In this document: positions 19,509 to 44,649 of the stretch, piece by piece
Numbering within the stretch: the first letter of the stretch is position 1
How the letters are laid out: every line of letters begins with the position of its first letter
Assembly: GCF_034387475.1 (NCBI RefSeq)
Contig: NZ_JAXCIL010000001.1
Coordinates: 1,488,001-1,552,000, forward strand
Length of the DNA stretch: 64,000 bases
From: Pseudomonas sp. Teo4
GTDB taxonomy: Bacteria > Pseudomonadota > Gammaproteobacteria > Pseudomonadales > Pseudomonadaceae
Reading direction: 5' to 3'
The notes under the pieces: generated by a model
Told to the model about the DNA's origin: nothing
Seen by the model: only the letters and a program-made list of their open reading frames with translations
The model's database searches: none
Made by a program: the position numbers and the translations under genes

Positions 19509-21752
19509 ATGAGCATTTTCTACCCTTCTTCAGACGAACAGGCCCCAACGTCGCCGGCCACTCGCCGTCATGCGGGCCGTTTATTGCCCATCGGTTTCGC
19601 TCTGGTCGGAATCGGCTTGTCCGTACTGCTTGGCCGGATGGATGTACAGCGCGAACACAGCGACCAGATCAGCACCATGACTGCGCAGCTTTCGGGTGTG
19701 CGCACAGCGCTGGAGGCGCAACTGCGAGCGGCGTTCGGCGAGACCGAGGGTATTGCGCAGTTGATTGCCGCCGATGGCGATATCAGCCCTGAGCACTTTC
19801 GGGGCATGGCCCGTGAAGCCTTGGCGTCGGTGCCTTACATGCGCCATGTGGCGCTGGCCCCAGGCGATGTGATCAGGGACGTCTATCCGCGCAAGGGTAA
19901 TCAGATGGTATTGGGCCTGGATTTGCGCAGTCTGACTGACCAATACCCGGTGGTGCAGGCGGCCAGGGAGCGGCAACAGCCCGTCCTGGCTGGCCCGTTG
20001 CAACTGCGCCAAGGCGGGAGCGCCTTGATCTACCGGCGGCCGGTGTTCGTGGGTGACCACGAAGGCGGCAAACGGTATTGGGGCAACGTGTCGGTGGTGG
20101 CCGATGTGGAGCGGCTGCTGGTCTCCGCCGGCTTGCGGCCGGACCTGGACATCGCCATCGCCTTGCGTGGTGTGGATGGCAAAGGCGGTGAAGGGGCGTT
20201 GATCTGGGGCGACGCCGGGCTGTTCGAGCGGCCGCTGCTCAGCCTGCCGGTGGAAGTGCCGGGCGGGCACTGGCAACTGGTGGCCGCGCCACTTCAGGGC
20301 TGGCCGCTGTTCCCGGGGATACTCGCATCCCCCTTGTTCCTGTTCGCGCTGGGTTGCACCGGGCTGTTCACGCTGTGCATCTCGCAGCTGAGCCGCAAGC
20401 AACGGTTGTTGCAGCAGCGCAACTGGGAGCTTCATCAATCCCAGGCCAAGCTGGAGCGCTCAGCCCACTACGACACCATCACCGGGCTGCCCAATCGTGT
20501 GCTGTTTCAGCAGCAGTTGACCCATGCCATCGCCCAGGGCAGCGGTCTGGCAGTACTGATGCTCGACATCGACGGTTTCAAGCAGGTCAACGACAGCCTC
20601 GGCCACCCCATGGGCGATCTGCTGCTACAGCAGGCCACCGCGCGCTTTCTGCAGGAACTCGACAGTGCCGACCGGGTCTGCCGCCTGGGCGGCGATGAAT
20701 TCGTGTTCATGCTTCAAGGCAGCCAGGGGCAGGTCAATCAGCAAGTACGTGCGCTGTTGCGTTGCTTGCAGCGGCCTTTCGACCTCAATGGCAATGCCGG
20801 CCTGGTGACTGGCAGTATTGGTTTGGCCTGGTGCCCCCAACATGGCGCAGACGCGGACAGCCTGCTGCGTCATGCCGACACCGCCATGTATGCGGCCAAG
20901 GAGGGCGGGCGCAATGCCTGGCAGCCTTACCTGCCGGAAATGACCGAGCGCCTGCAACAGCGTCTGGAACTTGAACGCAACCTGCGCCGGGCGTTGCAGA
21001 ACAATGAGTTCGAGCTTTGGTACCAGCCCAAGCTCGACCTGTTCAGTGGTCGGCTGGAAGGCGTGGAGGCACTGCTGCGTTGGCGCGATCCGGAACACGG
21101 CCTGGTCTCGCCTGGAGAGTTCATTCCCCTGGCTGAGCGTACGGGGTTGATCATTCCTTTGGGTGAGCGGGTGTTGGAGCTGGCGTGCGCCCAGTTGGCG
21201 GCGTGGCGAGCCAGTGACTGCTTGCCTGGGCCGCTGGCGATCAACGTGGCGGCGCTGCAGATCGAGCGCAGCGACTATGTTTCCACGCTCGCTCTGGCCC
21301 TCGAGCGGCATGCACTGCCGCCGAGCCTGCTGGAAGTGGAGATCACCGAAAGCCTGCTGATGGAGAGCCAGCAGCAAGCCTGCGCGGTGCTGGCCCAGTT
21401 GCAGGCGATGGGGGTTGCGACGGCGGTGGACGACTTTGGCACCGGCTACTCATCGTTGGCCTATTTACGTGCCTTGCCCATCGACCACCTGAAGATCGAC
21501 CGTGCGTTCATCAAGGACTTGCCCGAGGACGATGATGCCGTTGCAGTGGCCCGAGCCATCGTCGACCTGGGCCATGCCTTGGGTTATCGCATCACGGCCG
21601 AGGGAATCGAAACCCAGGCGCAATACGACTTCCTGCGCAACACCGGTTGTGATCAGGGGCAGGGGTATCTGCTGGGGCGGCCGATGCCGGCTGCCGAACT
21701 GCAGCGCTGGTTGCTCCAGCATCCGCAACGCCAGCACTTGTCGGGGGCATGA
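19509..21752 (+). CDS. CHASE-GGDEF-EAL bifunctional c-di-GMP protein
   Basis: Inner-membrane signalling protein of 747 residues. A first helix (about 23-40), an extracytoplasmic CHASE-type sensor (about 45-270; PYMRHVALAPGDVIRDVYP, GGSALIYRRPVF) and a second helix (about 280-300) precede GGDEF and EAL domains. GGDEF is intact (RLGGDEFVF) but lacks an RxxD inhibitory site. EAL motifs are also intact: EALLRW, EITESLL, DDFGTGYSSL, LKIDRAF, AEGIET and QGYLLGRPM. It may synthesise or degrade c-di-GMP; which dominates cannot be told. It sits between carbohydrate genes and a large exopolysaccharide cluster, a typical place for such control. Confidence 0.92.
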   Translation: MSIFYPSSDEQAPTSPATRRHAGRLLPIGFALVGIGLSVLLGRMDVQREHSDQISTMTAQLSGVRTALEAQLRAAFGETEGIAQLIAADGDISPEHFRGMAREALASVPYMRHVALAPGDVIRDVYPRKGNQMVLGLDLRSLTDQYPVVQAARERQQPVLAGPLQLRQGGSALIYRRPVFVGDHEGGKRYWGNVSVVADVERLLVSAGLRPDLDIAIALRGVDGKGGEGALIWGDAGLFERPLLSLPVEVPGGHWQLVAAPLQGWPLFPGILASPLFLFALGCTGLFTLCISQLSRKQRLLQQRNWELHQSQAKLERSAHYDTITGLPNRVLFQQQLTHAIAQGSGLAVLMLDIDGFKQVNDSLGHPMGDLLLQQATARFLQELDSADRVCRLGGDEFVFMLQGSQGQVNQQVRALLRCLQRPFDLNGNAGLVTGSIGLAWCPQHGADADSLLRHADTAMYAAKEGGRNAWQPYLPEMTERLQQRLELERNLRRALQNNEFELWYQPKLDLFSGRLEGVEALLRWRDPEHGLVSPGEFIPLAERTGLIIPLGERVLELACAQLAAWRASDCLPGPLAINVAALQIERSDYVSTLALALERHALPPSLLEVEITESLLMESQQQACAVLAQLQAMGVATAVDDFGTGYSSLAYLRALPIDHLKIDRAFIKDLPEDDDAVAVARAIVDLGHALGYRITAEGIETQAQYDFLRNTGCDQGQGYLLGRPMPAAELQRWLLQHPQRQHLSGA

Positions 21753-24925: not shown

Positions 24926-25306
24926 ATGCACCCCATGCCGGCGATAGGAACAGCGTCAAATGTTGGTTGGACGTACAACGATTAGCATTTGGGTTATCGC
25001 TGATGAAACACATTGGCCCCTGCAAAAGCCCACCTCACCGAGCCTTTATTCGAGGCATTGAGCCGTGATCATGCGCGCATTCATTGGCAAGTTTCACAAT
25101 GAAATCAACACTTTCAGCAATGTGGGTATAGCGCGTAAAACCCTGCAGAATTGTGCTGGCAAGTTTTTGACGATGTCGAGGTTGGTCCATTGAATTTTAT
25201 TATGGTGTCGGATCATTGACGTAATATCATTGTGCCCATAAGCTCCAATCACCAGCTAAGAAAACTTCTTCCTTCCCGTGTTTATCCTCTTTGTCAGGAG
25301 GGGATC
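24926..25306 (+). promoter_or_regulatory. AT-rich promoter region of the polysaccharide export operon
   Basis: A 380-bp gene-free, AT-rich stretch. Best sigma70-like match is TTGACG (25167-25172), 17 bp, TTGAAT (25190-25195); a second is TTGACG (25216-25221), 17 bp, TAAGCT (25239-25244). Either would start transcription 60-110 bp before the small PEP-CTERM-like gene. No regulator site is recognised. Confidence 0.4.
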
Positions 25307-25483
25307 ATGCGCTCGACACTGTTCATTAAGTCTATATTTTTATTGGTACTTTTGAGTGGCGCAGCACGCGCTGCCGACTCTTACATCAGCCAGGCGAACG
25401 TAATTCCGCTGGCGACGGCAGGTTGGCTTTTTGCGGTTGCGGTCATCGGCTTCGTCGCGGTCGCCAATAGAAGAAAAGTTTGA
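25307..25483 (+). CDS. 58-residue secreted protein with PEP-CTERM-like sorting tail
   Basis: Tiny protein with a strong RBS (CAGGAGGGG, then ATG 25307). Residues 1-22 are a signal peptide (MRSTLFIKSIFLLVLLSGAARA), and after only about nine residues the C-terminus reads VIPLATAGWLFAVAVIGFVA then VANRRKV: a Pro motif, a hydrophobic span with W-L-F and a basic end. That is the tripartite plan of PEP-CTERM exosortase substrates (VPLPAAxWLFxSxLLGL...RR). It lies 285 bp upstream of the Wza-like gene at the head of the export operon. No exosortase is present in the window. It could instead be a simple membrane-anchored peptide; the homology call is by motif only. Confidence 0.65.
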   Translation: MRSTLFIKSIFLLVLLSGAARAADSYISQANVIPLATAGWLFAVAVIGFVAVANRRKV

Positions 25484-25768
25484 TTTTTTTATAGGGGAGT
25501 CAACGGCTTGGGGTGCCTGTCGGGCATTTGACGCAAGGCCGTTGGCGAAAAGACTCACAGCTTGTCAATTCTCCAGCCATTGCTATATTCCAGTAGCCAG
25601 CAACCTGAAGGTTGCCCGGCAGCAGTAAGTGGTTTGTGTCGCAGTCAAAGGCCTTCAGGATGGTCGAGGTCATCGCAGTGGGTGGTTTGACTGCGGCGTG
25701 GAGCGAGAAGTTGTCCGTTGTTCTCACACAGTGCTCTTTACATGGCTACTTGCCTGGAGGGATCCCCC

Positions 25769-26326
25769 ATGGTGCGTTCGATGTGTTCTGTGCTCTGCGT
25801 GCTGCTGGCAGGGGTCGGTGCCAGCCATGCCGAAGATCGTAACTCCGCTTACCTGTTAAGCCCTGGCGACAAGTTGATGATTTCTGTCTGGCAGGAAGAT
25901 ACCCTGCGCCAGGAAACCACCGTGCTGCCCGATGGCAGTATCACCTTCCCGCTGGCCGGGCGCGTCGATGTCGCAGGCCTCGATGCCACTGCCGTCGCGC
26001 AAAAGGTCAAGGTCAAACTCGAACCCTTTCTCGCCGAACCGAATGTCAGCGTCGTGATCACCAGCACTGCTGGCAATCTTGTCTACGTGCAAGGTAAAGT
26101 GATCAAGCCTGGCCCGGTTCAAATGGAGGGGCCCACGGCAGTGTTGCAGGCGCTGAGCATGTCAGGCGGCCTGGACAAATTTGCGGACGAAGGTGATATA
26201 AAAGTAATTCGCCGCAATGGCGATTCACAAAAAGTACTGCCAGTGCGCTACAAGGATTTGGTGTCTGGGCGCGACATGTCCACCAATTTCCAACTGCAAG
26301 CTGGTGACACATTGATCGTTCCTTGA
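25769..26326 (+). CDS. Polysaccharide export protein (Wza/EpsE-like, short form)
   Basis: Periplasmic/outer-membrane export protein of 185 residues. A signal peptide (MVRSMCSVLCVLLAGVGASHA) without lipobox Cys is followed by the Poly_export domain (YLLSPGDKLMISVWQE, VLPDGSITFPLAGRVDVAG, VSVVITS) and one SLBB domain (VYVQGKVIKPGPVQMEG, LQALSMSGGL). It is about half the size of E. coli Wza and matches the short form seen in exosortase-associated clusters. ATG 25769 has GGAGG eight bases upstream; a frame from 25718 is unsupported. The barrel gene starts 26 bp later, so they are likely co-transcribed. Confidence 0.88.
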   Translation: MVRSMCSVLCVLLAGVGASHAEDRNSAYLLSPGDKLMISVWQEDTLRQETTVLPDGSITFPLAGRVDVAGLDATAVAQKVKVKLEPFLAEPNVSVVITSTAGNLVYVQGKVIKPGPVQMEGPTAVLQALSMSGGLDKFADEGDIKVIRRNGDSQKVLPVRYKDLVSGRDMSTNFQLQAGDTLIVP

Positions 26327-26352
26327 TCTTGCCATGTGCAGTAAGGCCCATA

Positions 26353-27468
26353 ATGCCGCTTCTTAGAAACACGGGTGTTGCGACAGCACTCTTGATTTTG
26401 CCGTACTCCGGAATGGTTCATGCCGCTATCTGGCACTCTTCGGTCGCCGTGCCGACTACGGTCGAGCACGACAGCAACCCCTTGCTGTTGACGTCTGACG
26501 AGAAGGCAGTCACGCGCACGATCATTGCGCCTGACTTTGGGTTGGTTGGCACGTTTGGCCGTGACGAGTTCAGTTTTGGCTTGGGCATGCAGGTGCTGCG
26601 CTCATCGGACACGGCCATCATCAAGGACCGTGAAGACCCCAACATCAGCCTGGGCTGGCAGCGCGAGACGGAAGGGGGCCGCTTTGGCCTGAAGGCGAAC
26701 TACAACGAGAGTTCGACGCTGTCTGCCCTGGTACAGGATACCGGCGTGGTGACCACCGATGGCACGCAGAAGCTGTCGACGGTGTCGGCGAACTGGAGTG
26801 ACACGATCACCGAACGCAATACGTTGTCCAACGAAACCTCTTACTCCCATGCCCGTTACGACCTCGCGACACTGACCGGTTATGACGAGCTGGCGAACGT
26901 GCTGACCTGGACCTACAACTGGAGTGAACGTACCGACCTCTACACCAGCTTCATCGCGAGACGCTATGAGCCGCAGGACGACACGACGTCGTCTGCCATC
27001 AACAGCTATACACCGAGGGTGGGCGTGAAGTACCAGCTCTCCGAGCGGTTCACCAGTGATGTGCATGTGGGTGTGAACGAGGTGTCCGGCGATAACGGCG
27101 GCCGACGTGGGGAAGGGGGCGTTTCGTTGCGCTACACAGGTGTGCGTACCGACGCGATTTTCAGTGCCGAGCGAAGCACCATGGCCAGTGCATCCGGAGG
27201 CTTTACCGAGGTGGACGCACTGCGGGGAACCTTGAGTTATGCCGTCAGCGAACTCACCCGGGTGGGCCTGGACGCCTCCTGGCAAGACGCCAAGGGCAGC
27301 ACGCCGAACACCTTGCAAGGCTACAGCGCATGGGCAAGCCACGAGCTTTCGCCTTTTTGGGATCTGCGCCTATCGTTGATGTACAAGGAACGTCAGCAAG
27401 ACAACGTGCCGGATGCAACTGGCACCATCATTGGAATGACCTTGACGTATAGATTACCCGACCTCTGA
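26353..27468 (+). CDS. Outer-membrane beta-barrel protein of the exopolysaccharide cluster
   Basis: 371-residue exported protein: signal peptide (MPLLRNTGVATALLILPYSGMVHA) then repeated amphipathic strands with alternating aromatic and polar residues (LGWQRETEGGRFGLKANYNE, TWTYNWSERTDLYTSFIARR, LRLSLMYKERQ) and an end MTLTYRLPDL. The early VEHDSNPLLL motif (D-S-N-P) is seen in the TIGR03016/EpsL-type outer-membrane proteins that accompany PEP-CTERM/XrtA polysaccharide loci. Probably forms part of the outer-membrane secretion path together with the small Wza-like protein. ATG 26353 has TAAGG upstream. Confidence 0.75.
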   Translation: MPLLRNTGVATALLILPYSGMVHAAIWHSSVAVPTTVEHDSNPLLLTSDEKAVTRTIIAPDFGLVGTFGRDEFSFGLGMQVLRSSDTAIIKDREDPNISLGWQRETEGGRFGLKANYNESSTLSALVQDTGVVTTDGTQKLSTVSANWSDTITERNTLSNETSYSHARYDLATLTGYDELANVLTWTYNWSERTDLYTSFIARRYEPQDDTTSSAINSYTPRVGVKYQLSERFTSDVHVGVNEVSGDNGGRRGEGGVSLRYTGVRTDAIFSAERSTMASASGGFTEVDALRGTLSYAVSELTRVGLDASWQDAKGSTPNTLQGYSAWASHELSPFWDLRLSLMYKERQQDNVPDATGTIIGMTLTYRLPDL

Positions 27469-27488
27469 ATTTCAGCGCGGTGGCCTCT

Positions 27489-29051
27489 ATGAAGTCTGAA
27501 TACGAGCTGTCCCTCAAAGATTACATTTCAATCATCAAGGATCGAGCCCTGCTGTTGGGGGTCAGTATCGTCGTCATTCTTGCGGTAACCGTGGCAGTCG
27601 CTGTCACGGTCCCGCCCATCTATCAGTCGACCGGCACCATTCTGGTGGAGTCGCAGCAGATTTCGCCCGACCTGGTGTCGGCGAACAACAACAGCTTCGC
27701 CGATGAGCGCATCGAGGTGATTCGCCAGCGGGTGATGACCCGCGAGAACCTGCTGCGGATCATCAACAAGTACAACCTGTTTGCCGACAAGGGCAAGCGC
27801 TACACCGAGTCGGACAAAATCGAGCACATGCGCACCGCGATCGTGGTGGCCACGCTCAGCACCTTCGTCAAGGGGCGCGGCGAGGCGACGGTCGCGTTCA
27901 ATGTGTCCTATGAAGACAAGCGCCCGGATGTGGCCAAGGAAGTGGCCAACGAACTGGTCACGCTGTTTCTCAATGAAAACCTCAAGCAGCGTACCGAGCG
28001 GGCCAGCGAGACCACTGAGTTCCTGACCCAGGAAGCGAACAAGCTGGGTTCGGAGCTGGCAAGCCTGGAGAACCAGCTGGCCGACTTCAAGCAGGCCCAT
28101 TCCAATGCCTTGCCAGAGCATCAAGAGCTGCGCATGAGCATGCTGTCGCGGGCTGAACTCGAATTCAGGGAGGTCGACCGTGACTACAAGGCTGCTCAGG
28201 AAGAGCTGCGCTACCTGGAGTTGGAACTGTCCGCGGCGAATGCCGGCCTGACCACCAGGATGGAAACCGGCAGGCCCGCGGCGGAGCAGCCGCAGGACCT
28301 GGCCAGCCTCAAGGCGGAGTACGCCAGGCTGCTGGGCAAGTACAAGGACGCCCACCCCGATGTGCAGGCGGTCAAACGCAAGATTCAAGCGCTTGAGTCG
28401 ACCGGAGGCAACGGCGTTGCGGTGGCGGAATCCAACCTGGATGCCGCCCGCGTACGCACGCGCATCGAGGCGGCCAAGTCGCGCATTGCCTCGTTGGCCG
28501 AACAAAAGCGTCAGCTGTCGCAGAAGATGGAAGGTTACGAGAAGGAAATCATTGAAGCGCCTCAAGTCGAGCGCGGCCTGGTGACCTTGATGCGTGACCA
28601 CGAGAACGCGCGCAAGAAGTATGAAGAGATTCGCGCCAAGGAAATGGGCGCGAAAATTACCGAAAGCCTGGAACAGGAAAACAAGGCGGAGCGTTTCGTA
28701 CTGCTGGAACCGCCGCTGATGCCAGAGAAACCGGTCAAACCCAACCGCAAGAAAATCGTCGCCCTGGGCGTGGTGTTGGCGCCGGCCGGTGGCGGTGCAT
28801 TGATCATGTTGCTGGAAATGCTCAATCAGCGTGTACGCGGTGTCGGCGCCCTTGAGAACGTAGTGGGCAAGCGTGTGCTGGTTGCGGTGCCGTTTATCTC
28901 CACCCAGGCCGAGCTGGCCCAACGCAGGCGATGGCGAACCCTGGTGATAGTCGCCGGTTTGCTGTTGGTTGCTATCATGTTAGCGATGGTCCATTTGTTC
29001 TACATGCCGTTGGACCTACTGCTTTTCAAAGCTATGGCTCGGTTTGAATAG
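27489..29051 (+). CDS. Polysaccharide chain-length determinant (Wzz/GNVR family)
   Basis: Inner-membrane polysaccharide co-polymerase of 520 residues. An N-terminal Wzz domain starts YELSLKDYISIIKDRALLLG with the first helix (about 18-42) and VTVPPIYQSTGTILVES; a long coiled coil (about 165-380) follows; then the GNVR segment (APQVERGLVTLMRDHENARKKY), LLEPPLMPEKPVKPNRK and a membrane helix near 415-435, with a further helix close to the C-terminus. It lacks a fused kinase domain; the separate ATPase gene follows after 12 bp. Controls polymer length together with that partner. ATG 27489 is preferred over GTG 27480. Confidence 0.88.
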   Translation: MKSEYELSLKDYISIIKDRALLLGVSIVVILAVTVAVAVTVPPIYQSTGTILVESQQISPDLVSANNNSFADERIEVIRQRVMTRENLLRIINKYNLFADKGKRYTESDKIEHMRTAIVVATLSTFVKGRGEATVAFNVSYEDKRPDVAKEVANELVTLFLNENLKQRTERASETTEFLTQEANKLGSELASLENQLADFKQAHSNALPEHQELRMSMLSRAELEFREVDRDYKAAQEELRYLELELSAANAGLTTRMETGRPAAEQPQDLASLKAEYARLLGKYKDAHPDVQAVKRKIQALESTGGNGVAVAESNLDAARVRTRIEAAKSRIASLAEQKRQLSQKMEGYEKEIIEAPQVERGLVTLMRDHENARKKYEEIRAKEMGAKITESLEQENKAERFVLLEPPLMPEKPVKPNRKKIVALGVVLAPAGGGALIMLLEMLNQRVRGVGALENVVGKRVLVAVPFISTQAELAQRRRWRTLVIVAGLLLVAIMLAMVHLFYMPLDLLLFKAMARFE

Positions 29052-29063
29052 GGAACAGCAGCG

Positions 29064-29870
29064 ATGGACAGAATTACGCCGGCTATTGGAAAAAACCTGC
29101 ATCAGGTATCGCCCAGCACCTCGGAGACGTCGCAACCTGCGCCAACGACCGACCCTTCTGGAGCGCTCGTACCTTTCGACTACATACAAACTACTGTGGT
29201 GCCATTGCGGCCAGAGCACCTGGAGCGCCATCGTATCGTGGCGTACAACAAGAACTCGAACATGAGCTGGGCGTTCGACCTGTTGCGCACCCAGGTGCTG
29301 CAGGCCATGGAAGAAAACGGTTGGCGCACGCTGGCCATCACCTCGCCGACGCCAGAGGCGGGCAAGACGGTACTGGCGATCAACCTGGCCATGAGTATTG
29401 CCCACCACACCACCAAGACGGCACTGCTGGTGGACTTCGACCTGCGTCGCCCCAGGGTCGGCGCCAGCCTGGGGTTGCCGATGGGCAAGGCCATGAACGA
29501 GTTGCTGGCCGGCAAGGCCGAACTGGGAGAGGTCCTGGTCAACCCGACGCTTCCACGTTTCGTGGTATTGCCGACCCGTGAGCCCGTTCCGCTGTCGACC
29601 GAGGTGCTGTCTTCGCCCAAGGTGACCGGGCTGATCGGCGACCTGCGCGACCGTTACGACTCACGTATCTGCATCTTCGACCTGCCACCGTTGTTGAGCT
29701 CGGACGACGCCATCACCTTGATGCCCAAGTTCGATTGCGTGCTGTTGGTGGTAGCCAACGGTCAGAACAGCAAGAAAGAGATCGAGGACTGCCTGTACCA
29801 CCTGGGCAACGCCAACCTGATCGGGGCAGTGTTGAACAAGGCTGAACCGCAGAAGCACTCCTACTATTGA
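29064..29870 (+). CDS. CpsD/CapB-type BY-kinase-like ATPase
   Basis: Cytoplasmic P-loop ATPase of 268 residues, partner of the chain-length protein. Walker A is SPTPEAGKTVLAINLA (Gly in the usual SPGEGKT is Ala here), Walker A' LLVDFDLRRPRVG and Walker B CIFDLPPLL. The first 60 residues are Ser/Thr/Pro rich. The C-terminus ends KHSYY, so there are only two tail tyrosines in place of the longer Tyr cluster of classical BY-kinases. This matches the tyrosine autokinases of XrtA-type polysaccharide operons. A strong hairpin directly after the stop ends the rightward transcript. Confidence 0.82.
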   Translation: MDRITPAIGKNLHQVSPSTSETSQPAPTTDPSGALVPFDYIQTTVVPLRPEHLERHRIVAYNKNSNMSWAFDLLRTQVLQAMEENGWRTLAITSPTPEAGKTVLAINLAMSIAHHTTKTALLVDFDLRRPRVGASLGLPMGKAMNELLAGKAELGEVLVNPTLPRFVVLPTREPVPLSTEVLSSPKVTGLIGDLRDRYDSRICIFDLPPLLSSDDAITLMPKFDCVLLVVANGQNSKKEIEDCLYHLGNANLIGAVLNKAEPQKHSYY

Positions 29871-29878
29871 AGGCTGCG

Positions 29879-29914
29879 CAATACCCCTGGCACTCCTCAG
29901 TGCCAGGGGTATTG
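29879..29914. terminator. Bidirectional terminator hairpin overlapping the galE 3' end
   Basis: CAATACCCCTGGCAC (29879-29893) pairs perfectly with GTGCCAGGGGTATTG (29900-29914), a 15-bp stem with a 6-base loop, between the convergent kinase and galE genes. The right arm encodes the last codons of galE (QQYPWH). Confidence 0.75.
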
Positions 29915-30859
29915 CTGTTCCCAATTCCAGGCGTGGGACACGATTTGCTCGAGCGCGGTGAATTGCGGTTTCCAACCCAGGATAGATTCTGCCTTGCCAG
30001 CGTCGGCGACCAGGGTCGGTGGGTCACCGGCTCGACGAGGTGCGTGATTGACGTTGATTTCACGGCCGGTTACCGCGCGGACGGTGTCGATCACCTGCTG
30101 GACCGAAAACCCCTGGCCGTTCCCCAGATTGAACACCGTGCTGGTGCCACCTTTGAGCAGGTAATCCACGGCCAGCGCGTGCGCCGAGGCCAGGTCGTTG
30201 ACGTGGATGTAATCGCGGATGCACGTGCCATCGGGGGTGTCATAGTCTTGACCGAACACGGTAATGGCATCGCGTCGCCCTGAAGCGGCCTGCAGAATCA
30301 GTGGAATCAGGTGGGTTTCCGGTTCATGGCATTCGCCCAATTGCCCGCCGGGGTCTGCGCCGGCTGCGTTGAAGTAACGCAGGCATACCGACTTCAATCC
30401 ATAGGCCCGGTCGAAGTCTTCGAGAATCTGTTCCACCATCCATTTGCTGCGCCCGTAAGGGTTGATCGGCGCCTTGGGGTGCTTCTCGTCGATGGGCGTG
30501 TATTGTGGGTCGCCATAGACAGCGGCGGTGGAAGAGAAGATCAGGTGCTTGATGTTGGCCCCTACCATCGCGTGCAGCAGCGTCAGAGTCGCCGCCACGT
30601 TGTTCTGGTAGTACTTGGCCGGGTCAGTGACGGACTCGCCCACCTGGATGTGGGAGGCGAAGTGGAAAACGGCATCGAAGTGGTATTCGCAGAACAGGGC
30701 CTCGAGGGCGTGCTTGTCCGCAACGTCCAGCCCCGCCCATTTGATATCGGGGCGGGTTTTCACGATATCCGCCACCACCACTTCATGACCTGCGTCCGCC
30801 AAGTGCTTGACCATGTGCGAACCGATGTAGCCTGCGCCTCCGACAACCAAGTACTTCAT
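29897..30859 (-). CDS. galE: UDP-glucose 4-epimerase
   Basis: Cytoplasmic short-chain dehydrogenase/reductase of 320 residues that interconverts UDP-glucose and UDP-galactose. Shows the NAD-binding GGAGYIGSH, the SSTAAVYG segment with catalytic Ser/Thr, YGRSKWMVE (Tyr-x3-Lys), LRYFNAAGADPGG and DGTCIRDYIHVNDLA. Length is slightly short of E. coli GalE (338) but typical for the group. ATG 30859 has AGGAGG upstream. It is last in the leftward block polymerase-hydrolase-galE and would supply UDP-Gal for the polymer. Confidence 0.93.
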   Translation of the reverse strand: MKYLVVGGAGYIGSHMVKHLADAGHEVVVADIVKTRPDIKWAGLDVADKHALEALFCEYHFDAVFHFASHIQVGESVTDPAKYYQNNVAATLTLLHAMVGANIKHLIFSSTAAVYGDPQYTPIDEKHPKAPINPYGRSKWMVEQILEDFDRAYGLKSVCLRYFNAAGADPGGQLGECHEPETHLIPLILQAASGRRDAITVFGQDYDTPDGTCIRDYIHVNDLASAHALAVDYLLKGGTSTVFNLGNGQGFSVQQVIDTVRAVTGREINVNHAPRRAGDPPTLVADAGKAESILGWKPQFTALEQIVSHAWNWEQQYPWH

Positions 30860-30935
30860 CCAATCCTCCTGGAACAGATTCAGTGTTGAGTGCCTGCCAA
30901 TACAGGTCTTATCAGAGCGTAGAAGGCCAAATGGG

Positions 30936-35302: not shown

Positions 35303-35503
35303 ATGGGCAAGCTTACGTTTTGTGGGCCACTGTGGGGCCGCAGGGGATTTTTGCGTGGTTGCGTCCTGTTGGGTGTTGGGGGCGCACTGTTCGGCGTTTC
35401 GTCGCGGGTTGCGCACAAGCCCGTGGTCAAGCCTGAAACTGAATTTGTCGTTATCAATGGATGGGTGTTGCCATCTCAGTACTTTCGGGACGGGCAAGCA
35501 TGA
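35303..35503 (+). CDS. Tat-signal miniprotein, putative small subunit of a GMC dehydrogenase
   Basis: A 66-residue protein with a twin-arginine signal: WGRRGFLRGCVLLGVGGALF (RRxFL core, hydrophobic span to about 35), then only some 25 further residues with the motif EFVVINGWVLPSQYF. GGGGA-like RBS precedes ATG 35303. Its TGA (35501-35503) overlaps the ATG of the flavoprotein gene (35500), so translation is coupled. In membrane-bound GMC dehydrogenases (gluconate, sorbitol, fructose) a small Tat-bearing subunit carries the signal-less flavoprotein across the membrane. The same role is proposed here; this version is unusually short. Confidence 0.72.
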   Translation: MGKLTFCGPLWGRRGFLRGCVLLGVGGALFGVSSRVAHKPVVKPETEFVVINGWVLPSQYFRDGQA

Positions 35504-36966
35504 TCAAGGACTATCAGACGCAAAAAGAACTGCGTAAAGCCTATGATTTCTGCATTGTCGGCGCAGGCCCGGCCGGCATCACCCTGGGCTTGCGTCTGGC
35601 GAAAGCCGGCTGGCATGTGGCGCTGATCGAGGGCGGTGGGCGGGAACACTCGGAGCGCTCGCACTCGCTCTACACCTGTACATCCACGGGCCTTGAGTTG
35701 TACCCGGCGGAAACGCGCTTGCGCTTTCTGGGCGGCACTTCCAATCACTGGGCGGGCCGTTGCCGACCGTTTACCCCCTCCGACTTCGCTGTAGCACCAC
35801 CTGGTGACCTGCCTGGATGGCCCATTCCCTATGCGGAGGTGGAGCGCTATCTGCCCGCAGCCATGGACATCGTCGACCTGCCTAAAGGCGAAGATTTTCA
35901 CCCGCTGAATGCGAGCCTGGGGGGTGGGGATTTCGATGCGGATGCATTTTTGCTCAGCCCGCCGACTCGTTTTGCCCAGAAGTATGCAACGGAGCTGGAA
36001 GAGACCGACGGTCTGGACGTGTTCATCAATTGCAACTGTGTCGATCTGGAGTTCGACAGTGCGTCGGGCAGTGTGACGGCAGCAGTGGTGTCCGACTACG
36101 ATCTTCACCGCGAGCGGCTGGTGGCTAAAAATTACGTGTTGGCCACGGGTGCTATCGAAAACGCCAGGCAATTGCTTAACAGCAAGTCGCTGCAGGAGGC
36201 GGGTATCGCCAACAAGGAAGGCTTGGTCGGGCGTTGCTTCATGGAACACCTGAATGTCGACCTCGGCACCTTCATATTGAAGAGTGGGCTCAACACCAAA
36301 GGTCGTCAGTATTACACCACCGACGCCTTTGTCGCGGAGTATCGCGCCGGTAAAGGCAACGTTTCAGCCACGGTGGTCGATGAGGTGCAGGCTTATGGCC
36401 GCACCGCCGAAGTGAAGAGTTTTCTTGAAACCCTCACGTGCGATTGGGGGATCGCCGACAAGGTCCAGTGGATCTCAAAGTTCAGTTGCCCAGGTGACGG
36501 CGTCATCGGGACGATGATCGAGCAATTCCCCAATGTTCAGAGCCGTATTTCGCTATTGGATGAAAAGGACGCGCTGGGTGTTGCCAAGGTCAATGTCAAT
36601 TGGGTGGTGAGCCCTGAAGACCGGCACACCATCAAGTGCATCGGTAGCGAGTTGGCCAAGCAGTTCGCCGAAGCGCAACTGGGCTTTATCAAACTCAACG
36701 AATACGTCTATGACACCTCCGTGCCCCTGAAAATGGGGCCACACGCCCATCACATGGGCACTACACGCATGGCTGCATCGGCGCAGTTCGGTGTCGTGGA
36801 TAGCGACTGCAAGGTGTTCGACACCGAAAACCTGTATATGGCGGGAAGCAGTATCTTCGCCACCGGCGGCGCTTCGAACCCGACCATGCCTCTGTTGCAG
36901 TTCGCCCTGAGGCTGGTGGACCACCTCAATGACAAGATGCGTACGGCGGGCCGTACGCTGGTTTGA
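35500..36966 (+). CDS. GMC-family FAD-dependent oxidoreductase
   Basis: Flavoprotein dehydrogenase of 488 residues. FAD-binding DFCIVGAGPAGITLGLRLA and LIEGGG, GGTSNHWAGRCRPF, and the C-terminal GMC domain with HHMGTTRMA (catalytic His region), FDTENLYMAGSSIFATGGAS and NPTMPLLQFALRL. It has no signal of its own; the overlapping upstream gene encodes one. Position at the start of the rightward glycan-assembly operon suggests it oxidises a sugar alcohol group of the polymer or precursor, or an alcohol/sugar in the periplasm; no substrate can be named. A frame beginning 39 nt earlier overlaps the Tat gene and is not used. Confidence 0.85.
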   Translation: MIKDYQTQKELRKAYDFCIVGAGPAGITLGLRLAKAGWHVALIEGGGREHSERSHSLYTCTSTGLELYPAETRLRFLGGTSNHWAGRCRPFTPSDFAVAPPGDLPGWPIPYAEVERYLPAAMDIVDLPKGEDFHPLNASLGGGDFDADAFLLSPPTRFAQKYATELEETDGLDVFINCNCVDLEFDSASGSVTAAVVSDYDLHRERLVAKNYVLATGAIENARQLLNSKSLQEAGIANKEGLVGRCFMEHLNVDLGTFILKSGLNTKGRQYYTTDAFVAEYRAGKGNVSATVVDEVQAYGRTAEVKSFLETLTCDWGIADKVQWISKFSCPGDGVIGTMIEQFPNVQSRISLLDEKDALGVAKVNVNWVVSPEDRHTIKCIGSELAKQFAEAQLGFIKLNEYVYDTSVPLKMGPHAHHMGTTRMAASAQFGVVDSDCKVFDTENLYMAGSSIFATGGASNPTMPLLQFALRLVDHLNDKMRTAGRTLV

Positions 36967-37109
36967 AGAAAGGAGTGAGCGGCAGGTTTGACACGGCAAC
37001 TACAGCGCGGTTGATAACGGGTTGAGTGCGAGGCGGTCAGTACCAACAACAACGAGACCGAAGTCGCCTCAGGGACAGTCCATGATCGCATTACGTGCGA
37101 GGCCAGCAA

Positions 37110-37727
37110 ATGATCGGATGGATACGCAGCGCTTTGAAGCATTACGCACTTTCAACAGGACGTGGCGGCAAACTCTACAAGAAGCTTTGCCACCCCACTG
37201 CGAAGGATTGGGGGGAATACCTGACGCGTTGGGGCAACTTCCACTCGGTGGGGGGTAATCTGCATGTGAACGTCGGTTGCAATGTGACCGACCCGGTGCT
37301 TGTGCGATTGGGTACCAACGTGGGGTTGTCGGACTGTACGCTGCTTGGGCATGACGGTGTCGCGGTCCTTATCAATGTCTGCTATGGCAAACAGCTGGAC
37401 TCGGTGGGCTTCATCGATATTCGCGACAACTGTTTCATAGGCCATGGTGTGATCGTGATGCCACGGGTCACCATCGGGCCCGATTCGATTGTCGCAGCGG
37501 GTGCCGTGGTCACCAAGGACGTGCCGCCGGGTACGGTGGTGGGGGGGAACCCGGCGAAAGTCCTGTGCACGACCGAAGAGCTGATTCAGCGGGTCGAGGC
37601 GCGTTGTGCGACCTACCCTTGGGCTGACCTGATCAAACAACGTAGCAGTGGTTACGATCCGGTCATGGAGCCCAAGCTGGCCGCCATGCGGCGTGAGTAT
37701 TTCTTCGGAGACGGCAGCAATGGATAG
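37110..37727 (+). CDS. Hexapeptide-repeat acyltransferase (LbH family), first copy
   Basis: 205-residue acyltransferase with left-handed beta-helix repeats: GGNLHVNVGCNVTDPVLVRLG, FIDIRDNCFIGHGVIVMPRV, TIGPDSIVAAGAVVTKDVPPGT and GNPAKVL, the usual end of maltose/galactoside O-acetyltransferase-like enzymes. ATG 37110 has GAGG at the right distance. Its end overlaps the next glycosyltransferase start by 8 nt. Expected to place an acetyl (or other acyl) group on a sugar of the repeat unit, using acyl-CoA. Confidence 0.85.
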   Translation: MIGWIRSALKHYALSTGRGGKLYKKLCHPTAKDWGEYLTRWGNFHSVGGNLHVNVGCNVTDPVLVRLGTNVGLSDCTLLGHDGVAVLINVCYGKQLDSVGFIDIRDNCFIGHGVIVMPRVTIGPDSIVAAGAVVTKDVPPGTVVGGNPAKVLCTTEELIQRVEARCATYPWADLIKQRSSGYDPVMEPKLAAMRREYFFGDGSNG

Positions 37728-38676
37728 CAAGCCCGTCGATGTGATGGTGGTGAACTTCAATACGGCATCGTTGCTGCAACCGATGTTCGATGCCTTGCGC
37801 AAGGCCAGGGGCGAGCAGCTGGCAAGTTACCTGGTGGTGGACAACGCCTCGGTCGACAATTCGGTGGAGCGCATGGCTCAGGTGTGCCCGGAGGCGTTGC
37901 TGCTGAGCAACACAAAGAACGTTGGCTTCGGGCGCGCCAACAATCAGTTGCTCGAACACTTGCAGGGCAAGTACGCGTTACTGCTCAACACCGACGCGTT
38001 CGTGGCCAGCGATACCCTGGACAAGACCCTCGAGTACATGGAAACCCACCCCGAGTGCGGTGTGCTAGGCGTGCGCCTGGTGGGGCGTGACGGCGACCTG
38101 CAGCCTTGCTGCCGTTATTTCCCGACCCCATTGAACATCTTTGTGTCCCGCACTGGGTTGGACCGGTTTTTCCCGGGCCTGAAGATGGTCGACGAAATGA
38201 GCTGGGACCATGGCACGGTGCGCGAGTGCGACTGGTTGCCAGGTTGCTTCTACCTGGTGCGACGTGAGGTGCTCGACCAGGTCGGGTTGTTCGACCCGCG
38301 CTACTTCCTTTATTACGAAGAGGTGGACCACTGCAAGCGGGTCAAGGAGGCAGGCTGGAAAGTGGTTTACTACCCGCACACCACCGTCGTGCACATCGGT
38401 GGTGAAAGCTCAAAGTCGGTTGCCGAACTGGAGGCGGCCAGCCGGCAGATCTCAACCTACCAGATCGAAAGCGAACTCTTGTACTTTCGTAAGCACCACG
38501 GCGTCACGGGGTTGATCCTGCACATGCTGCTGGTAAGCCTGGGCGATGCTGTGCTGGCACTGAAGGCGTTGTTGAAGGGGCGTGGCTGGGCAGCCATCAA
38601 GGCGTGCTGGCTGCATACCCGAGCCACCTGGTCGCTGTTGTTCGCAACCCGGTTCGCAAGCCAACCCACACGGTAG
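37720..38676 (+). CDS. GT2 glycosyltransferase, rhamnosyltransferase-like
   Basis: Cytoplasmic glycosyltransferase of 318 residues, WbbL/RfbF-like. GT2 motifs: VDVMVVNFNTASLL, YLVVDNASVDNS, NVGFGRANNQ, LLNTDAFVAS (NTD in place of DXD) and FDPRYFLYYEEVDHCKRVKEAGW, followed by VVHIGGES. These are typical of rhamnosyl/dTDP-sugar transferases. ATG 37720 overlaps the previous stop, so translation is coupled; the longer upstream frame is spurious. The next gene follows after 8 bp. Confidence 0.87.
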   Translation: MDSKPVDVMVVNFNTASLLQPMFDALRKARGEQLASYLVVDNASVDNSVERMAQVCPEALLLSNTKNVGFGRANNQLLEHLQGKYALLLNTDAFVASDTLDKTLEYMETHPECGVLGVRLVGRDGDLQPCCRYFPTPLNIFVSRTGLDRFFPGLKMVDEMSWDHGTVRECDWLPGCFYLVRREVLDQVGLFDPRYFLYYEEVDHCKRVKEAGWKVVYYPHTTVVHIGGESSKSVAELEAASRQISTYQIESELLYFRKHHGVTGLILHMLLVSLGDAVLALKALLKGRGWAAIKACWLHTRATWSLLFATRFASQPTR

Positions 38677-38684
38677 GTGAAGCC

Positions 38685-39209
38685 ATGTTCGAGAACATTC
38701 GCGCCGACCTGCGGGCGCACGGAGGGGACTGGGGCGCCCAGGGTTTCTGGGCTTTGCTGGTCTATCGATTTGGCCGTTGGCGCTACGGAGTGCGCCCGGC
38801 CATTCTGCGTAAGCTCTGCTCGATCGTGTACAAGGTGCTGTTCAAACTGGTGCAGATCCTCACTGGTATCGAACTGCCCTGCGAAGTGGTGATCGGCCGT
38901 AACTTCGTCATCGATCATTTTGGCGGCATCGTCATCAGCGGCTACGCCCGCTTCGGTGATGACTGCCGGATCCGCAACGGGGTAGTGGTGGGCTTGAAAA
39001 ATGTCGAAGAACCCATTGCCCCAGTGTTCGGCAACAACGTCGATATCGGCACCGGAGCCAAGGTGCTGGGCAATATCCGCATCGGTAACAACGTGCTCAT
39101 CGGCGCCAATGCCGTGGTGCTGACCGACGTGCCGGACAACTGTTCGGCCGTGGGCGTACCGGCGACCATCAAGGCGAGAAAGCCCGTCGAAGCCAAAGCG
39201 TGTTCCTGA
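38685..39209 (+). CDS. Serine acetyltransferase-like hexapeptide acyltransferase, second copy
   Basis: 174-residue enzyme of the CysE/WcaB-like branch of hexapeptide acyltransferases: FENIRADLRAHGGDWGAQGF with LVYRFGRWRYG at the start, then LbH repeats EVVIGRNFVIDHFGGIVISG, FGNNVDIGTGAKVLGNIRIG, NNVLIGANAVVLTDVPDNC and GVPATIKAR. CysE itself is longer; in polysaccharide loci this short form acetylates a glycan. ATG 38685 with GGTAGGTG upstream. It differs clearly from the acyltransferase 1.5 kb upstream, so two acyl marks are likely. Confidence 0.85.
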   Translation: MFENIRADLRAHGGDWGAQGFWALLVYRFGRWRYGVRPAILRKLCSIVYKVLFKLVQILTGIELPCEVVIGRNFVIDHFGGIVISGYARFGDDCRIRNGVVVGLKNVEEPIAPVFGNNVDIGTGAKVLGNIRIGNNVLIGANAVVLTDVPDNCSAVGVPATIKARKPVEAKACS

Positions 39210-39260
39210 GGTAGCCGAGAGGCCCGCGAGTGCAGGGCGTGTTCCGTTCAAGGCAGATGA

Positions 39261-40247
39261 GTGAGGCCCAGGGTGACAGGCATCGGAGTCGTGGTAATCG
39301 GTCGTAACGAAGGGCTGCGCCTGGAGCGCTGCCTGGCCTCCGTGGTCGGCCGCGCGGACAAGGTGGTGTATGTCGACTCGGGATCCACCGACGGTTCCGT
39401 GCAGCGTGCCTTGGCCCATGGCGTCGAGGTGGTAGAGCTGGACATGACCATCCCGTTCACTGCGGCGCGTGCGCGCAACGAGGGTTTTGCCCGTCTGCAC
39501 GGGGTGTTGCCAGCGCTGCGTTTCGTGCAGTTCGTGGACGGCGATTGTGAAGTGGTCGCCGGCTGGCTCGAGCAGGCCCAGGCGTTTCTACAGACGCACC
39601 CGGAAGTGGCGGTGGTGTGTGGCCGGCGCCGCGAGCGTTACCCGCGGCATTCGATCTACAACCTGTTGTGCGACCTGGAATGGGACACGCCCGTTGGGGA
39701 AACCAAGGCCTGCGGCGGTGACGCGCTGATACGCGCCGAAGCGTTCCTGGCGGTGTCCGGGTTCCTGGCCGACCTGATCGCCGGAGAAGAGCCTGAGATG
39801 TGCGTGCGTTTGCGTGCGGGCGGCTGGAAGGTCTGGCGACTTGACGCTGAAATGACCCTGCACGACGCCGCCATGACCCGCTTCAGCCAATGGTGGCGGC
39901 GCAGCATGCGGGCGGGCTATGCCTTTGCGCAGGGGGCGTACCTGCACGGTGAAACGCCCGAGCGGCATTGGCGACAGGAGTCGCGGCGGGCCTGGTTCTG
40001 GGGGTTGGGACTGCCGCTGACTTGCGTGCTTGCCAGCCTGTTGCTGGGTAGCGTCGGGCTGTTGCCACTGTTGATCTACCCACTGCAGACATTGCGCCTG
40101 GCACGCCGTGGTGGCCGGTCGCGACGTGAGAACTGGCTGCAGGCGGTGTTTCTTGTGCTTGGAAAGTTTCCGGAGATGGTGGGGCAGGCGAAGTTTCTAT
40201 TGAACAGGTTCGGCGCCGGCAAGGCGGCGTTGATCGAGTACAAGTGA
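39261..40247 (+). CDS. GT2 glycosyltransferase with C-terminal membrane helices
   Basis: 328-residue glycosyltransferase: GIGVVVIGRNEGLRLERCL, VVYVDSGSTDGS, QFVDGDCEVVAGW (DGD metal site) and GGDALIRAEAFLAVSG, then two hydrophobic helices near 255-285. The start is uncertain: GTG 39261 (AAGG upstream) or GTG 39273 would each give a complete domain. Ends 7 nt before the VirK/YbjX-like gene. Donor sugar not deducible. Confidence 0.83.
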   Translation: MRPRVTGIGVVVIGRNEGLRLERCLASVVGRADKVVYVDSGSTDGSVQRALAHGVEVVELDMTIPFTAARARNEGFARLHGVLPALRFVQFVDGDCEVVAGWLEQAQAFLQTHPEVAVVCGRRRERYPRHSIYNLLCDLEWDTPVGETKACGGDALIRAEAFLAVSGFLADLIAGEEPEMCVRLRAGGWKVWRLDAEMTLHDAAMTRFSQWWRRSMRAGYAFAQGAYLHGETPERHWRQESRRAWFWGLGLPLTCVLASLLLGSVGLLPLLIYPLQTLRLARRGGRSRRENWLQAVFLVLGKFPEMVGQAKFLLNRFGAGKAALIEYK

Positions 40248-40254
40248 GAAACCC

Positions 40255-41259
40255 ATGACATATCAGTCGATAGTGAAAAGCGTGCTCACACTGCAGCCCG
40301 GTTACTCGCTACGGGCACTGAACAACAAACTCAAGCTGGGGGTTCTGATCGTCAAGCAGAGGGCAGACCTCAAAGCCTTCATGGCGCGCATGTCCGCTGC
40401 ACTAGGGCCCAAGGGCTTCAAGGCGCTGGGTTTTGACAGTATCGGCGTGGTGCAGTGGCCCTACATCAGCAAGACCTGGGAAGCGCCGCAGCGACTGGAT
40501 GCGGTGGCGTCTCACTATGAAGTGGTCGCTGACCGATTCCCACGCCTGTTGCTGCTCGGGCGTGAAGAGCATCAGGTGCTGTGCGACCTGTCGGGTTACT
40601 CCAGCCAGTGCACGCTGGTGCTGGATCGGCCGATCTGGTTCAGGCGCGAAGGGGAACTGGTGCTCAATCTGTTTCAGGGTGACCTGCGCGTGGCATCGCT
40701 GGCGTTCAGCCTGGGCGGCACCGAGGATGAAACCTTTGTATTGATCGGCGCCGTACAGGGGATTCACAAAGGCATCGACAGCGAACGGTCGTTGAGCATC
40801 TACAGGGACCTGACCAAGGATTTCGAAGGACTACGCCCGCGAAGCTTTCTGATCGAAATCATCAAGTGCCTGGCCAGGACCATCGGTGCCGCCCGCATCT
40901 ACGCGGTTGGTGACCAGTACCGGCACCATCGCCATCGCTATTTCGGTGCCGAGAAGGCCGATGACCTGGCAGCCAACTACGACACCATCTGGCTGGAGAA
41001 CGGCGCATCACCTTCGGAACGCCAGGACTTCTTCAGCCTTCCCCTGGAAGCAGCAAGACGCTCGGCAGACGACATCGCCCCGAAAAAACGGGCGATGTAC
41101 CGCAGGCGCCACGCCATGCTGGACGACGTGTTCGCCCACATCGAAGGCATGTTCCCCGCTCACCCAACACCTGGACCAAAACCAAAACAACAGGGACAGG
41201 AAACGCTGCACAACTTGACGACATCGGGGGACAGGCCAGTGGCCAACAGTCTGGATTGA
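40255..41259 (+). CDS. VirK/YbjX family (DUF535) protein
   Basis: 334-residue cytoplasmic protein. Family marks of DUF535: RLDAVASHYEVV, EGELVLNLFQGDLRVASLAF, LIGAVQGIHKG, DLTKDFEGLRPRSFLIEI, RIYAVGDQYRHHRHRYFG, YDTIWLENG and KKRAMYRRRHAMLDDVF. VirK (Shigella/Salmonella) and YbjX are linked to outer-membrane properties and resistance to cationic peptides, but no biochemical role is settled. The last 45 residues are Pro/Gln-rich and probably disordered. Finding it between glycosyltransferase genes, 7 nt after one, suggests a role in making or modifying the exopolysaccharide. Confidence 0.85.
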   Translation: MTYQSIVKSVLTLQPGYSLRALNNKLKLGVLIVKQRADLKAFMARMSAALGPKGFKALGFDSIGVVQWPYISKTWEAPQRLDAVASHYEVVADRFPRLLLLGREEHQVLCDLSGYSSQCTLVLDRPIWFRREGELVLNLFQGDLRVASLAFSLGGTEDETFVLIGAVQGIHKGIDSERSLSIYRDLTKDFEGLRPRSFLIEIIKCLARTIGAARIYAVGDQYRHHRHRYFGAEKADDLAANYDTIWLENGASPSERQDFFSLPLEAARRSADDIAPKKRAMYRRRHAMLDDVFAHIEGMFPAHPTPGPKPKQQGQETLHNLTTSGDRPVANSLD

Positions 41260-41320
41260 AAGGGCTGGAGCGACTGAGCAAGCCTGGTCATTCATCACGC
41301 GGGTATCGATTTGGGTTCCT

Positions 41321-43707: not shown

Positions 43708-44447
43708 TGGGCAAGCAGACCTGGCAACAGCGCTGGAGCACCATTTTGGGGAAGCTTCGGGTAGTTCGCGATCCGGCCGACGAACAACAGGTACTGGCAG
43801 CGCTGGTGGTGCCTCAGGCCCCCACCGTACTGGGCTTCGTCAACGCACATGCGATGAATCTGGTCGTGGGTAACGCGCAGTACTGCGCTGCGTTGTCGGG
43901 GGCGGACGTGCTGTTGCGTGACGGCGCGGGCATGTCGATTCTCTACCGCCAGTTGGGTCTGGACCCAGGCCTGAACATGAACGGTACCGACTTCATCCCC
44001 AAATTGCTGCAGGCGTTCAAGGGAAGGCGTGTAGCGTTCTGGGGTACCGAGGAACCCTTCCTGGGCCAGGCAGTGACACATTGTACGGCGGTGTACGGTG
44101 TTGAGCCTGTTTCGGTTCACCACGGTTTTGCCGACGTCGACACTTACCTTGCGCTAGCGCGCGAACTGAGCCCGGAGCTGATCGTATTGGGCATGGGCAT
44201 GCCCAAGCAGGAGGCGCTTGCCGCACGCCTGGCCGATGGCGCAGCGCCTTGTCTGATCGTGTGCGGCGGGGCCATCCTGGACTTTCTGGGTGGCAAGGTC
44301 ACACGGGCACCGCGGTGGGTACGCCGCCTGGGCGGCGAATGGGCGTTTCGCTTGCTCAGGGAACCCAAGCGTCTGTTCGTCCGCTACGTGCTGGGCAACC
44401 CAATGTTTTTGCTGCGCACCTTGTTGCTCACCCGGCGGGGCGTGTGA
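43707..44447 (+). CDS. WecG/TagA/CpsF-family glycosyltransferase
   Basis: GT26 enzyme of 246 residues that transfers a (N-acetyl)mannosamine-type sugar to a lipid-linked acceptor in the family. Signatures: VLGFVNAHAMNLVVGN, LLRDGAGMSILYRQLG, MNGTDFIPKLLQAF, AFWGTEEP, LIVLGMGMPKQE, VCGGAILDFLGGKVTRAPRW and GGEWAFRLLREPKRLFVRY. All conserved blocks are intact. The UDP-ManNAc made by WecB at 12-13 kb is a possible donor precursor. A 202-bp gap separates it from the initiating transferase. Confidence 0.92.
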   Translation: MGKQTWQQRWSTILGKLRVVRDPADEQQVLAALVVPQAPTVLGFVNAHAMNLVVGNAQYCAALSGADVLLRDGAGMSILYRQLGLDPGLNMNGTDFIPKLLQAFKGRRVAFWGTEEPFLGQAVTHCTAVYGVEPVSVHHGFADVDTYLALARELSPELIVLGMGMPKQEALAARLADGAAPCLIVCGGAILDFLGGKVTRAPRWVRRLGGEWAFRLLREPKRLFVRYVLGNPMFLLRTLLLTRRGV

Positions 44448-44649
44448 ACCCGACAAAAGCGAGGGCAGGGGGGCAATGCGAGCACGCAGGTGGCACTGCG
44501 CTGCTACAGTTGAATGAAACCGCCTCGTTGGCGGGCGTGCGGTGGGGGCTTTCATTGGGCGTTGGGCTTTCGGGTACTGAAAGCGGCTGTTGCGCACATT
44601 GAAATTGATGGAAAGACGTTTGCTACGCTCACATAGATGAGGTCGGAGA

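Follow-up and report, generated by a model that had tools for sequence, protein, structure and literature searches.

EppA, a 58-residue protein before wza in a Pseudomonas exopolysaccharide export operon, probably descends from an exosortase substrate and was stripped of its cargo domain once XrtD was lost

Exosortase substrates are usually seen as cargo plus a disposable tail. Two described systems lie close to the locus analyzed here, namely the VPLPA-CTERM proteins with their exosortase XrtD (TIGR03370, TIGR04152) and the XrtA/PEP-CTERM loci, which, as far as the available text of their description goes, contain the same kinds of export genes, although EppA does not belong to the XrtA branch (PMC1569441). 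The locus lies in a 64,000-nucleotide stretch of Pseudomonas sp. Teo4 DNA, referred to as the window, where a frame had been predicted to encode an orphan PEP-CTERM-like protein at the head of an XrtA-type export operon. Its product is a conserved member of the curated, uncharacterised family NF046088 (EppA), of which the 58-residue protein is a full-length member (positions 1-58 of 58); the family is thus already named, and what is new is the origin of EppA. In the open-licence PMC literature, neither an origin of EppA from XrtD substrates, nor the fragments of exosortase genes, nor anything on exosortase loss together with PEP-CTERM proteins and polysaccharide export was found. Among the matches listed, none was about the EppA protein by title or start of abstract, and no paper on Pseudomonas exosortases or PEP-CTERM proteins was on EppA by title; papers on exosortase pseudogenes included none on Pseudomonas by title, the full name of the EppA family was absent, and the mention of VPLPA-CTERM was unrelated. 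In the context of archaeal type IV pili, the symbol EppA presumably denotes a prepilin peptidase. It was found 12 times in the available part of a review on these pili (PMC4371748).

The eppA frame runs on the + strand from the ATG at 25307 to the TGA at 25481-25483, and its features are as follows.

25296-25303, + strand: Shine-Dalgarno sequence AGGAGGGG, read from the sequence
25307-25483, + strand: eppA, EPS-associated small membrane protein (NF046088, 126.7 bits, cut-off 90)
25307-25372, + strand: predicted signal peptide, residues 1-22, with A-x-A site (A20 and A22 in 43/43 EppA)
25406-25480, + strand: presumed former sorting tail, residues 34-58, with P34, W40, G48-F49 and A53-N54-R55 from the alignment

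EppA thus consists of a signal-peptide-like start with A20-x-A22, eleven residues (23-33), P34 followed by W40-L-F, a hydrophobic stretch and an ANRRKV end. Its AlphaFold2 model has helices at residues 2-27 and 35-53 (mean pLDDT 73). EppA is the sole NF046088 match in the source genome, and a protein search gave 64 relatives, the named ones all from Pseudomonas except one Pantoea and a compost metagenome. As regards the general sorting-tail models, hmmscan gave no match of EppA to PF07589 (PEP-CTERM) at E<=1, and PF07589 had 0 matches in the source genome, the control genomes being equally silent; TIGR03370 (VPLPA-CTERM; cut-off 25.35 bits) had 0 matches in the source genome at E<=0.01.

Downstream of eppA, profile matches confirmed the predicted export neighbours, a short Wza, a barrel, a GNVR/Wzz protein and a BY-kinase.

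25769-26326, + strand: Wza-like OPX with Poly_export and SLBB, no further Pfam domain found (start ATG picked by eye)
26323-27468, + strand: outer-membrane beta-barrel partner, EpsL-like (TIGR03016, weak, 26.1 bits, cut-off 90.85)
27480-29051, + strand: GNVR/Wzz chain-length protein (TIGR03007, 253.6 bits, cut-off 278.85; PF02706, 29.1 bits)
29064-29870, + strand: BY-kinase (TIGR03018, 142 bits, cut-off 230.65)
35461-46068, + strand: oxidoreductase and sugar-transferase block in pea order PP_3133-3142, against the accessible part of the table in PMC4287175
44650-46068, + strand: wcaJ, last gene of the pea-like block

The four genes after eppA match models of the XrtA set, all below cut-off. 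The gap between eppA and wza is 285 nt in the window; a search of it gave a single promoter-like site, at 25562-25589, and nothing resembling a terminator. Two frames after the BY-kinase (29867-30283 and 30311-30889) are without an NCBIfam (E<=1) or Pfam family, and counterparts of both follow the kinase in most related loci at 30-60% identity. A CHASE-GGDEF-EAL protein is encoded upstream of the operon at 19509-21752, and one also lies upstream of EppA in five related loci. In one related locus (L086:3638-4442) the BY-kinase match is in two overlapping pieces, perhaps by a frameshift. For the sugar-transferase block, DUF535 was taken by us to be the VirK domain of PP_3138.

We then searched 398 Pseudomonas genomes with the EppA model. 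The tail was found in 66 of them, in 43 as the 58-residue form over the cut-off and in 23 as the end of a longer secreted protein, the latter matching below the cut-off (E 2.8e-13 to 2.2e-5) from position 17-29 to 58 of the model. The window's GNVR protein matched in 65 of the 398 genomes at E<=1e-80 (weakest 7.5e-143), and the two lists of genomes are the same except for G621, whose contig ends inside wza. Tail and operon therefore never separate in the 398-genome sample, and the predicted tie to the export operon holds in 65/65 genomes with its GNVR gene. Less than 1500 nt downstream of the tail gene, and on its strand, wza follows in 43/43 EppA loci (gap about 204-367 nt) and in 21/23 long loci; in L057 and L067, whose clusters are rearranged, the long gene is found close to the GT61 gene, and wza is elsewhere on the same contig. 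In the wider order, weak EppA-model tails occurred in 12 other genomes, 11 of them with an exosortase; we read the 12 plus-strand matches of 21 (the nine on the minus strand being left out), and each ends like a PEP-CTERM protein. The pea genes are reported in the P. putida group and less so in the P. jessenii and P. mandelii subgroups, according to the accessible part of PMC7716237, a distribution that seems to fit that of EppA.

Over residues 18-58, EppA can be aligned at 56% identity to the 41 C-terminal residues of a 218-residue protein linked to XrtD in G621. After its signal peptide EppA reads ADSYISQ...IPLATAGWLF, and the full-length forms end SDSYVNQ...VPLPAAAWLF. The DSY-x-(N/S)-Q linker and the A-N-R-R-K end are common to EppA and the long proteins. 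Measured against the VPLPA-CTERM architecture, signal and tail are present in EppA and the cargo domain is absent. The 23 long forms are of 114-218 residues with cargos of 52-156 residues, the cargo length being the total minus 26 (signal) and minus 36 (linker and tail); one such C-terminus is AVPLSAAAWLFSSALFGFIVVANRRKI. A cargo domain is common to the 218-residue form of G621 and the 205-residue form of L058, and most shorter forms keep its landmarks. A protein search with the 218-residue form gave 70 relatives of 151-282 residues, mostly metagenomic; Foldseek with its model (mean pLDDT 64.8) gave no match at E<=0.001. Among sorting-tail models, the EppA relatives in G621 and P. fluvialis score best against VPLPA-CTERM: in eight chosen genomes TIGR03370 gave 28.8 bits for P. 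fluvialis, 27.8 for G621, 24.1 for G586, 19.8 for G610 and nothing for the four others, which include the source genome, and in a whole-protein scan 24.0 for G621 and 24.6 for P. fluvialis, just under 25.35. The predicted relation to exosortase substrates is supported. The nearest curated sorting family is VPLPA-CTERM/XrtD rather than XrtA/PEP-CTERM as first proposed, and XrtA/PEP-CTERM membership was dropped because the exosortase paired with EppA relatives is XrtD.

That no exosortase accompanies eppA held for the whole source genome (96.2% complete), where neither PF09721 nor TIGR04178 found one and the controls matched. The term orphan fits the genome, but in place and sequence the gene corresponds to a full-length substrate. 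Among the 66 tail-bearing genomes, PF09721 is present in G621 alone. Over the 398 genomes it occurs in nine, the eight without an EppA tail scoring 86-97 bits as against 231-235 (G402, G442, G533, G550, G563, G697, G712 and G758; L093-L100). G621, a 77%-complete MAG, has an XrtD of 556.7 bits (cut-off 400) on a contig with the order XrtD, PrsT, ATPase, WcaJ, the 218-residue protein, a second protein whose sorting tail is weak, and Wza; 4,995 nt separate the xrtD start from wcaJ (L091:11494 to 16489). This genome also has a second exosortase, XrtB, with EpsI and EpsD. A contig scan, which supplied the outgroups, kept 79 loci of 180 confirmed matches. It was queried with the long family, which put exosortase-bearing loci with the 58-residue form out of its reach, and the pattern used, P[LV]PAAAWLF, required an intact motif. 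Of its 11 named Pseudomonas loci, P. fluvialis S00202, an isolate, has an exosortase (XrtD, 559.6 bits, then PrsT and ATPase) and 10 are without; the XrtD contig carries a 224-residue form, then a second protein and the operon. An exosortase is also present in L106, L114 and L116 from other lineages, and G621 and P. fluvialis are the only two exosortase-bearing loci of Pseudomonas type that were found. In both of these loci the second protein, of about 190 residues, is encoded after the full-length protein and before wza (L091:18863-19432, whose product has a weak VPLPA tail, and L102:10714-11286), where the window has just its 285-nt gap.

Remnants of the missing genes were detected in exosortase-free loci. 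Pieces of XrtD (21-49 residues, 37-76% identity), starting 140-804 nt before wcaJ, are present in P. fluorescens HK44 (L103), P. brassicacearum 48H11 (L104), P. fluorescens FW300-N2E3 (L105), P. fluorescens PS691 (L109), Pseudomonas sp. H3(2019) (L115) and L067, and pieces of PrsT in the first five and weakly in L057 (E 0.001). In total, seven exosortase-free loci keep xrtD and/or prsT remnants in the order and on the strand seen in G621, and reversed queries gave 0 matches at these loci. The other five named exosortase-free loci had no such pieces at E<=1e-5, and neither had the window and 34 other tail stretches at E<=0.01, apart from the intact genes of G621; most of these stretches end before wcaJ. 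Since xrtD remnants were found in long-form loci only and none in the window, exosortase loss in the EppA branch may have been separate from that in the long-form branch.

The direction of change was inferred from trees. A quick-method tree of GNVR protein and BY-kinase, rooted on L106, itself a long branch, comprised 45 rows: 14 EppA (that of the window and 13 from the 42 remaining loci, 29 with too short stretches being left out), 27 long (including three identical pairs) and 4 exosortase-bearing. SH-aLRT supports were 99 for the exosortase-free clade, 100 for the 58-residue clade and 80 for the long clade, and a Wza tree with G621 added gave the same clades at 88, 80 and 88. Five of the seven remnant loci, whose stretches are without wza or GNVR, could be placed only in a WcaJ tree of 12 rows, in which the eight exosortase-free rows fall on one side with support 99. 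The 58-residue form thus most likely arose on one branch, and rooting on exosortase-bearing outgroups points to loss as the direction. The long clade is the sister of the 58-residue clade and not its ancestor, and no stepwise series is seen inside the EppA clade.

Selection on tail and cargo was evaluated by Nei-Gojobori counts, in which saturated pairs were dropped (594 of 903 EppA pairs used) and dS is near saturation across EppA. For EppA, median dN/dS was 0.08 overall, 0.15 for residues 23-33 and 0.08 for the tail; pooled pN/pS with saturated pairs kept was 0.18, 0.24 and 0.17, respectively, and the less saturated T3 subgroup (17 sequences, pS 0.48) also gave a dN/dS of 0.08. All 43 frames are without stops and 17 positions are invariant. 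Together with the NF046088 match over cut-off and the occurrence in 43/398 genomes, this purifying selection establishes the frame as genuine, as had been supposed. For the long forms in four close groups (6, 5, 2 and 2 loci), cargo median dN/dS was 0.42, 0.41, 0.49 and 0.24, the last from the close pair L072/L073 and counting against a loose cargo, and that of the 26-residue tail was 0.08, 0.00, 0.00 and 0.00. Over all 22 exosortase-free long loci the medians were 0.52 for cargo and 0.08 for tail, and pooled pN/pS was 0.68 and 0.16. The signal peptide of the long forms is under loose constraint (dN/dS 0.38-0.78), and the ten-residue linker is variable (0.12-0.90). Selection on the tail is thus strong, and the cargo is either under loose constraint or missing. 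The exosortase-bearing pair G621/P. fluvialis retains 57% cargo identity at 66% Wza identity, compared with a mean of 39% at 70% for 78 pairs from 13 of the 22 exosortase-free long loci; with one pair against many, this is only suggestive.

Within the tail, not all parts are kept alike. The P-x5-W core, on whose conservation the original prediction depended, persists among orthologues (P34 in 41/43, W40 in 43/43), and the first proline is also present in 18/22 exosortase-free long forms. The VPLP motif has lost its second proline in 43/43 EppA, and the hydrophobic stretch and A-N-R are kept. The P-x-P pair occurs in 0/43 EppA and 5/22 exosortase-free long forms; it is present in 5/5 exosortase-bearing proteins, a biased count as four came from the scan demanding P-x-P, and, free of this bias, in 12/12 of the wider-order tails found with the EppA model, which are other proteins from seven genomes, six with exosortase. 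Judging from these alignments, the part that a sortase reads is decaying, and the part that would anchor the peptide in the membrane is retained.

These results are best explained if EppA is a VPLPA-CTERM substrate whose cargo was lost after loss of XrtD and whose tail became a permanent single-pass part of the exporter, a reading that we hold to be probable. The resemblance to PEP-CTERM proteins is most likely true ancestry, nearest to the XrtD/VPLPA branch, because EppA has both its tail and its position before wza in common with longer secreted proteins, because XrtD shares a contig with the full-length protein, and because the exosortase-free loci form one clade and seven exosortase-free genomes keep broken xrtD and/or prsT; that EppA itself does not match the VPLPA-CTERM model counts against it. 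According to this scheme, the lineage would have lost XrtD and then the protein its cargo domain, by a single deletion that removed the entire cargo on the branch leading to the 58-residue form. After cutting by signal peptidase I, a 36-residue N-out/C-in membrane peptide would remain, with about ten residues outside, one helix and RRKV inside. Such a state would be passing in an ordinary VPLPA-CTERM protein, before the exosortase cuts, and final in EppA, which is now probably a single-pass part of the exporter in the inner membrane. There it may work beside the Wzz-like protein, the kinase or Wza, our first guess for the partner being the Wzz-like protein or the BY-kinase at the inner membrane, and it may serve as the scaffold or export cofactor first proposed. 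We lean slightly towards the broader view that a sorting signal turned into a protein by itself: with the exosortase lost and the cargo deleted, the leftover tail would have been taken up as a membrane subunit dedicated to EPS export, and two sister Pseudomonas lineages would show two results of one loss, the first with a decaying cargo and the second without any.

Other explanations account for parts of the data. The original prediction had allowed for an unknown protease, and EppA might still be processed if such an enzyme cut the tail as an exosortase would, which could explain why P34 is kept in 41/43 EppA along with the hydrophobic stretch and the basic end. We consider this very improbable: PF09721 is missing from 65/66 tail-bearing genomes and TIGR04178 was not found in the source genome, no cargo is left to release, no other NF046088 match exists in that genome besides EppA, and the loss of the second proline in 43/43 speaks, as motif decay, against an unknown sortase, on which ground this processing was dropped. 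The reverse history, in which the 58-residue form is old and an inserted cargo domain gave rise to the long proteins, would suit the sister relationship of the two clades and an outgroup scan that favoured long forms. It is improbable to a like degree, since the exosortase-bearing G621, P. fluvialis and L106, read whole or nearly so, have the long form with cargos that mutually align, the cargo of L058, which is exosortase-free, can be aligned to those of G621 and P. fluvialis, and an exosortase accompanies the 58-residue form in 0/43.

Only 41 residues align with the 218-residue relative and single hydrophobic helices resemble each other, so an ordinary small membrane protein might have come to look like a sorting tail by convergence. 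This appears very improbable and was dropped, because EppA and the long proteins share the gene place before wza, the DSY-x-(N/S)-Q linker and the A-N-R-R-K end, and because within the genus the tail model matches only genomes with the operon, plus G621, where the contig end cuts it. The loosely constrained cargo and differing lengths of the long relatives might also suggest that EppA is a functionless relic not yet erased. Its dN/dS of about 0.08 and pooled pN/pS of 0.18, the 43 open frames with their 17 invariant positions and the inseparability of operon and tail in 398 genomes make this the most improbable of the alternatives. The preferred reading, descent from a VPLPA-CTERM substrate with retention of the tail, suggests that the tail does a job of its own for polysaccharide export, as it perhaps did in the ancestor too, the tail being the part that selection keeps after sortase and cargo are gone.

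As to regulation, the following site lies 100 nt before the eppA start.

25207-25220, + strand: FleQ-box-like GTCGGATCATTGAC, 9/13 consensus positions

The consensus was taken from the accessible parts of PMC6120874 and PMC8125075; in the former, the P. aeruginosa FleQ consensus is called unreliable and that of KT2440 too stringent. A GTC-N8-GAC site with at least 9/13 consensus positions was found in 42/66 upstream regions (33/43 EppA, 9/23 long), against 152/6600 base-shuffled control regions; the other 14 long loci had no scored FleQ box. In vivo, FleQ binds upstream of PP_3126, a polysaccharide biosynthesis/export protein, as stated in the available text of PMC6120874. The box upstream of eppA is a candidate site and a lead only. 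Because of it, its counterparts and the binding at PP_3126, eppA is perhaps expressed along with the exporter genes under the control of FleQ and c-di-GMP.

At 58 residues, and in laboratory P. putida, EppA offers a small testable system for asking why polysaccharide clusters contain exosortase genes. For annotation it carries a warning, as at least one Pseudomonas protein, P0121 of Pseudomonas sp. 14P_8.1_Bac3 (L108), is named VPLPA-CTERM sorting domain-containing by NCBI and comes from a PF09721-free genome. Compared with known systems, the window's Wza resembles the Class 3 OPX proteins in having Poly_export and SLBB only and in being followed by a barrel, and the word exosortase has 0 occurrences in the available text on that class (PMC9603273). 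The product order of PP_3133-3142 matches 35461-46068, a likeness to the pea cluster in gene order, as far as the accessible part of PMC4287175 extends; the cluster as named starts at PP_3132. From the VPLPA-CTERM/XrtD systems EppA differs in that no exosortase was found with it and that it is without cargo, second proline and TIGR03370 match, yet it is like them in its signal peptide, its C-terminal tail and its place near wza, with counterpart loci in G621 and P. fluvialis.
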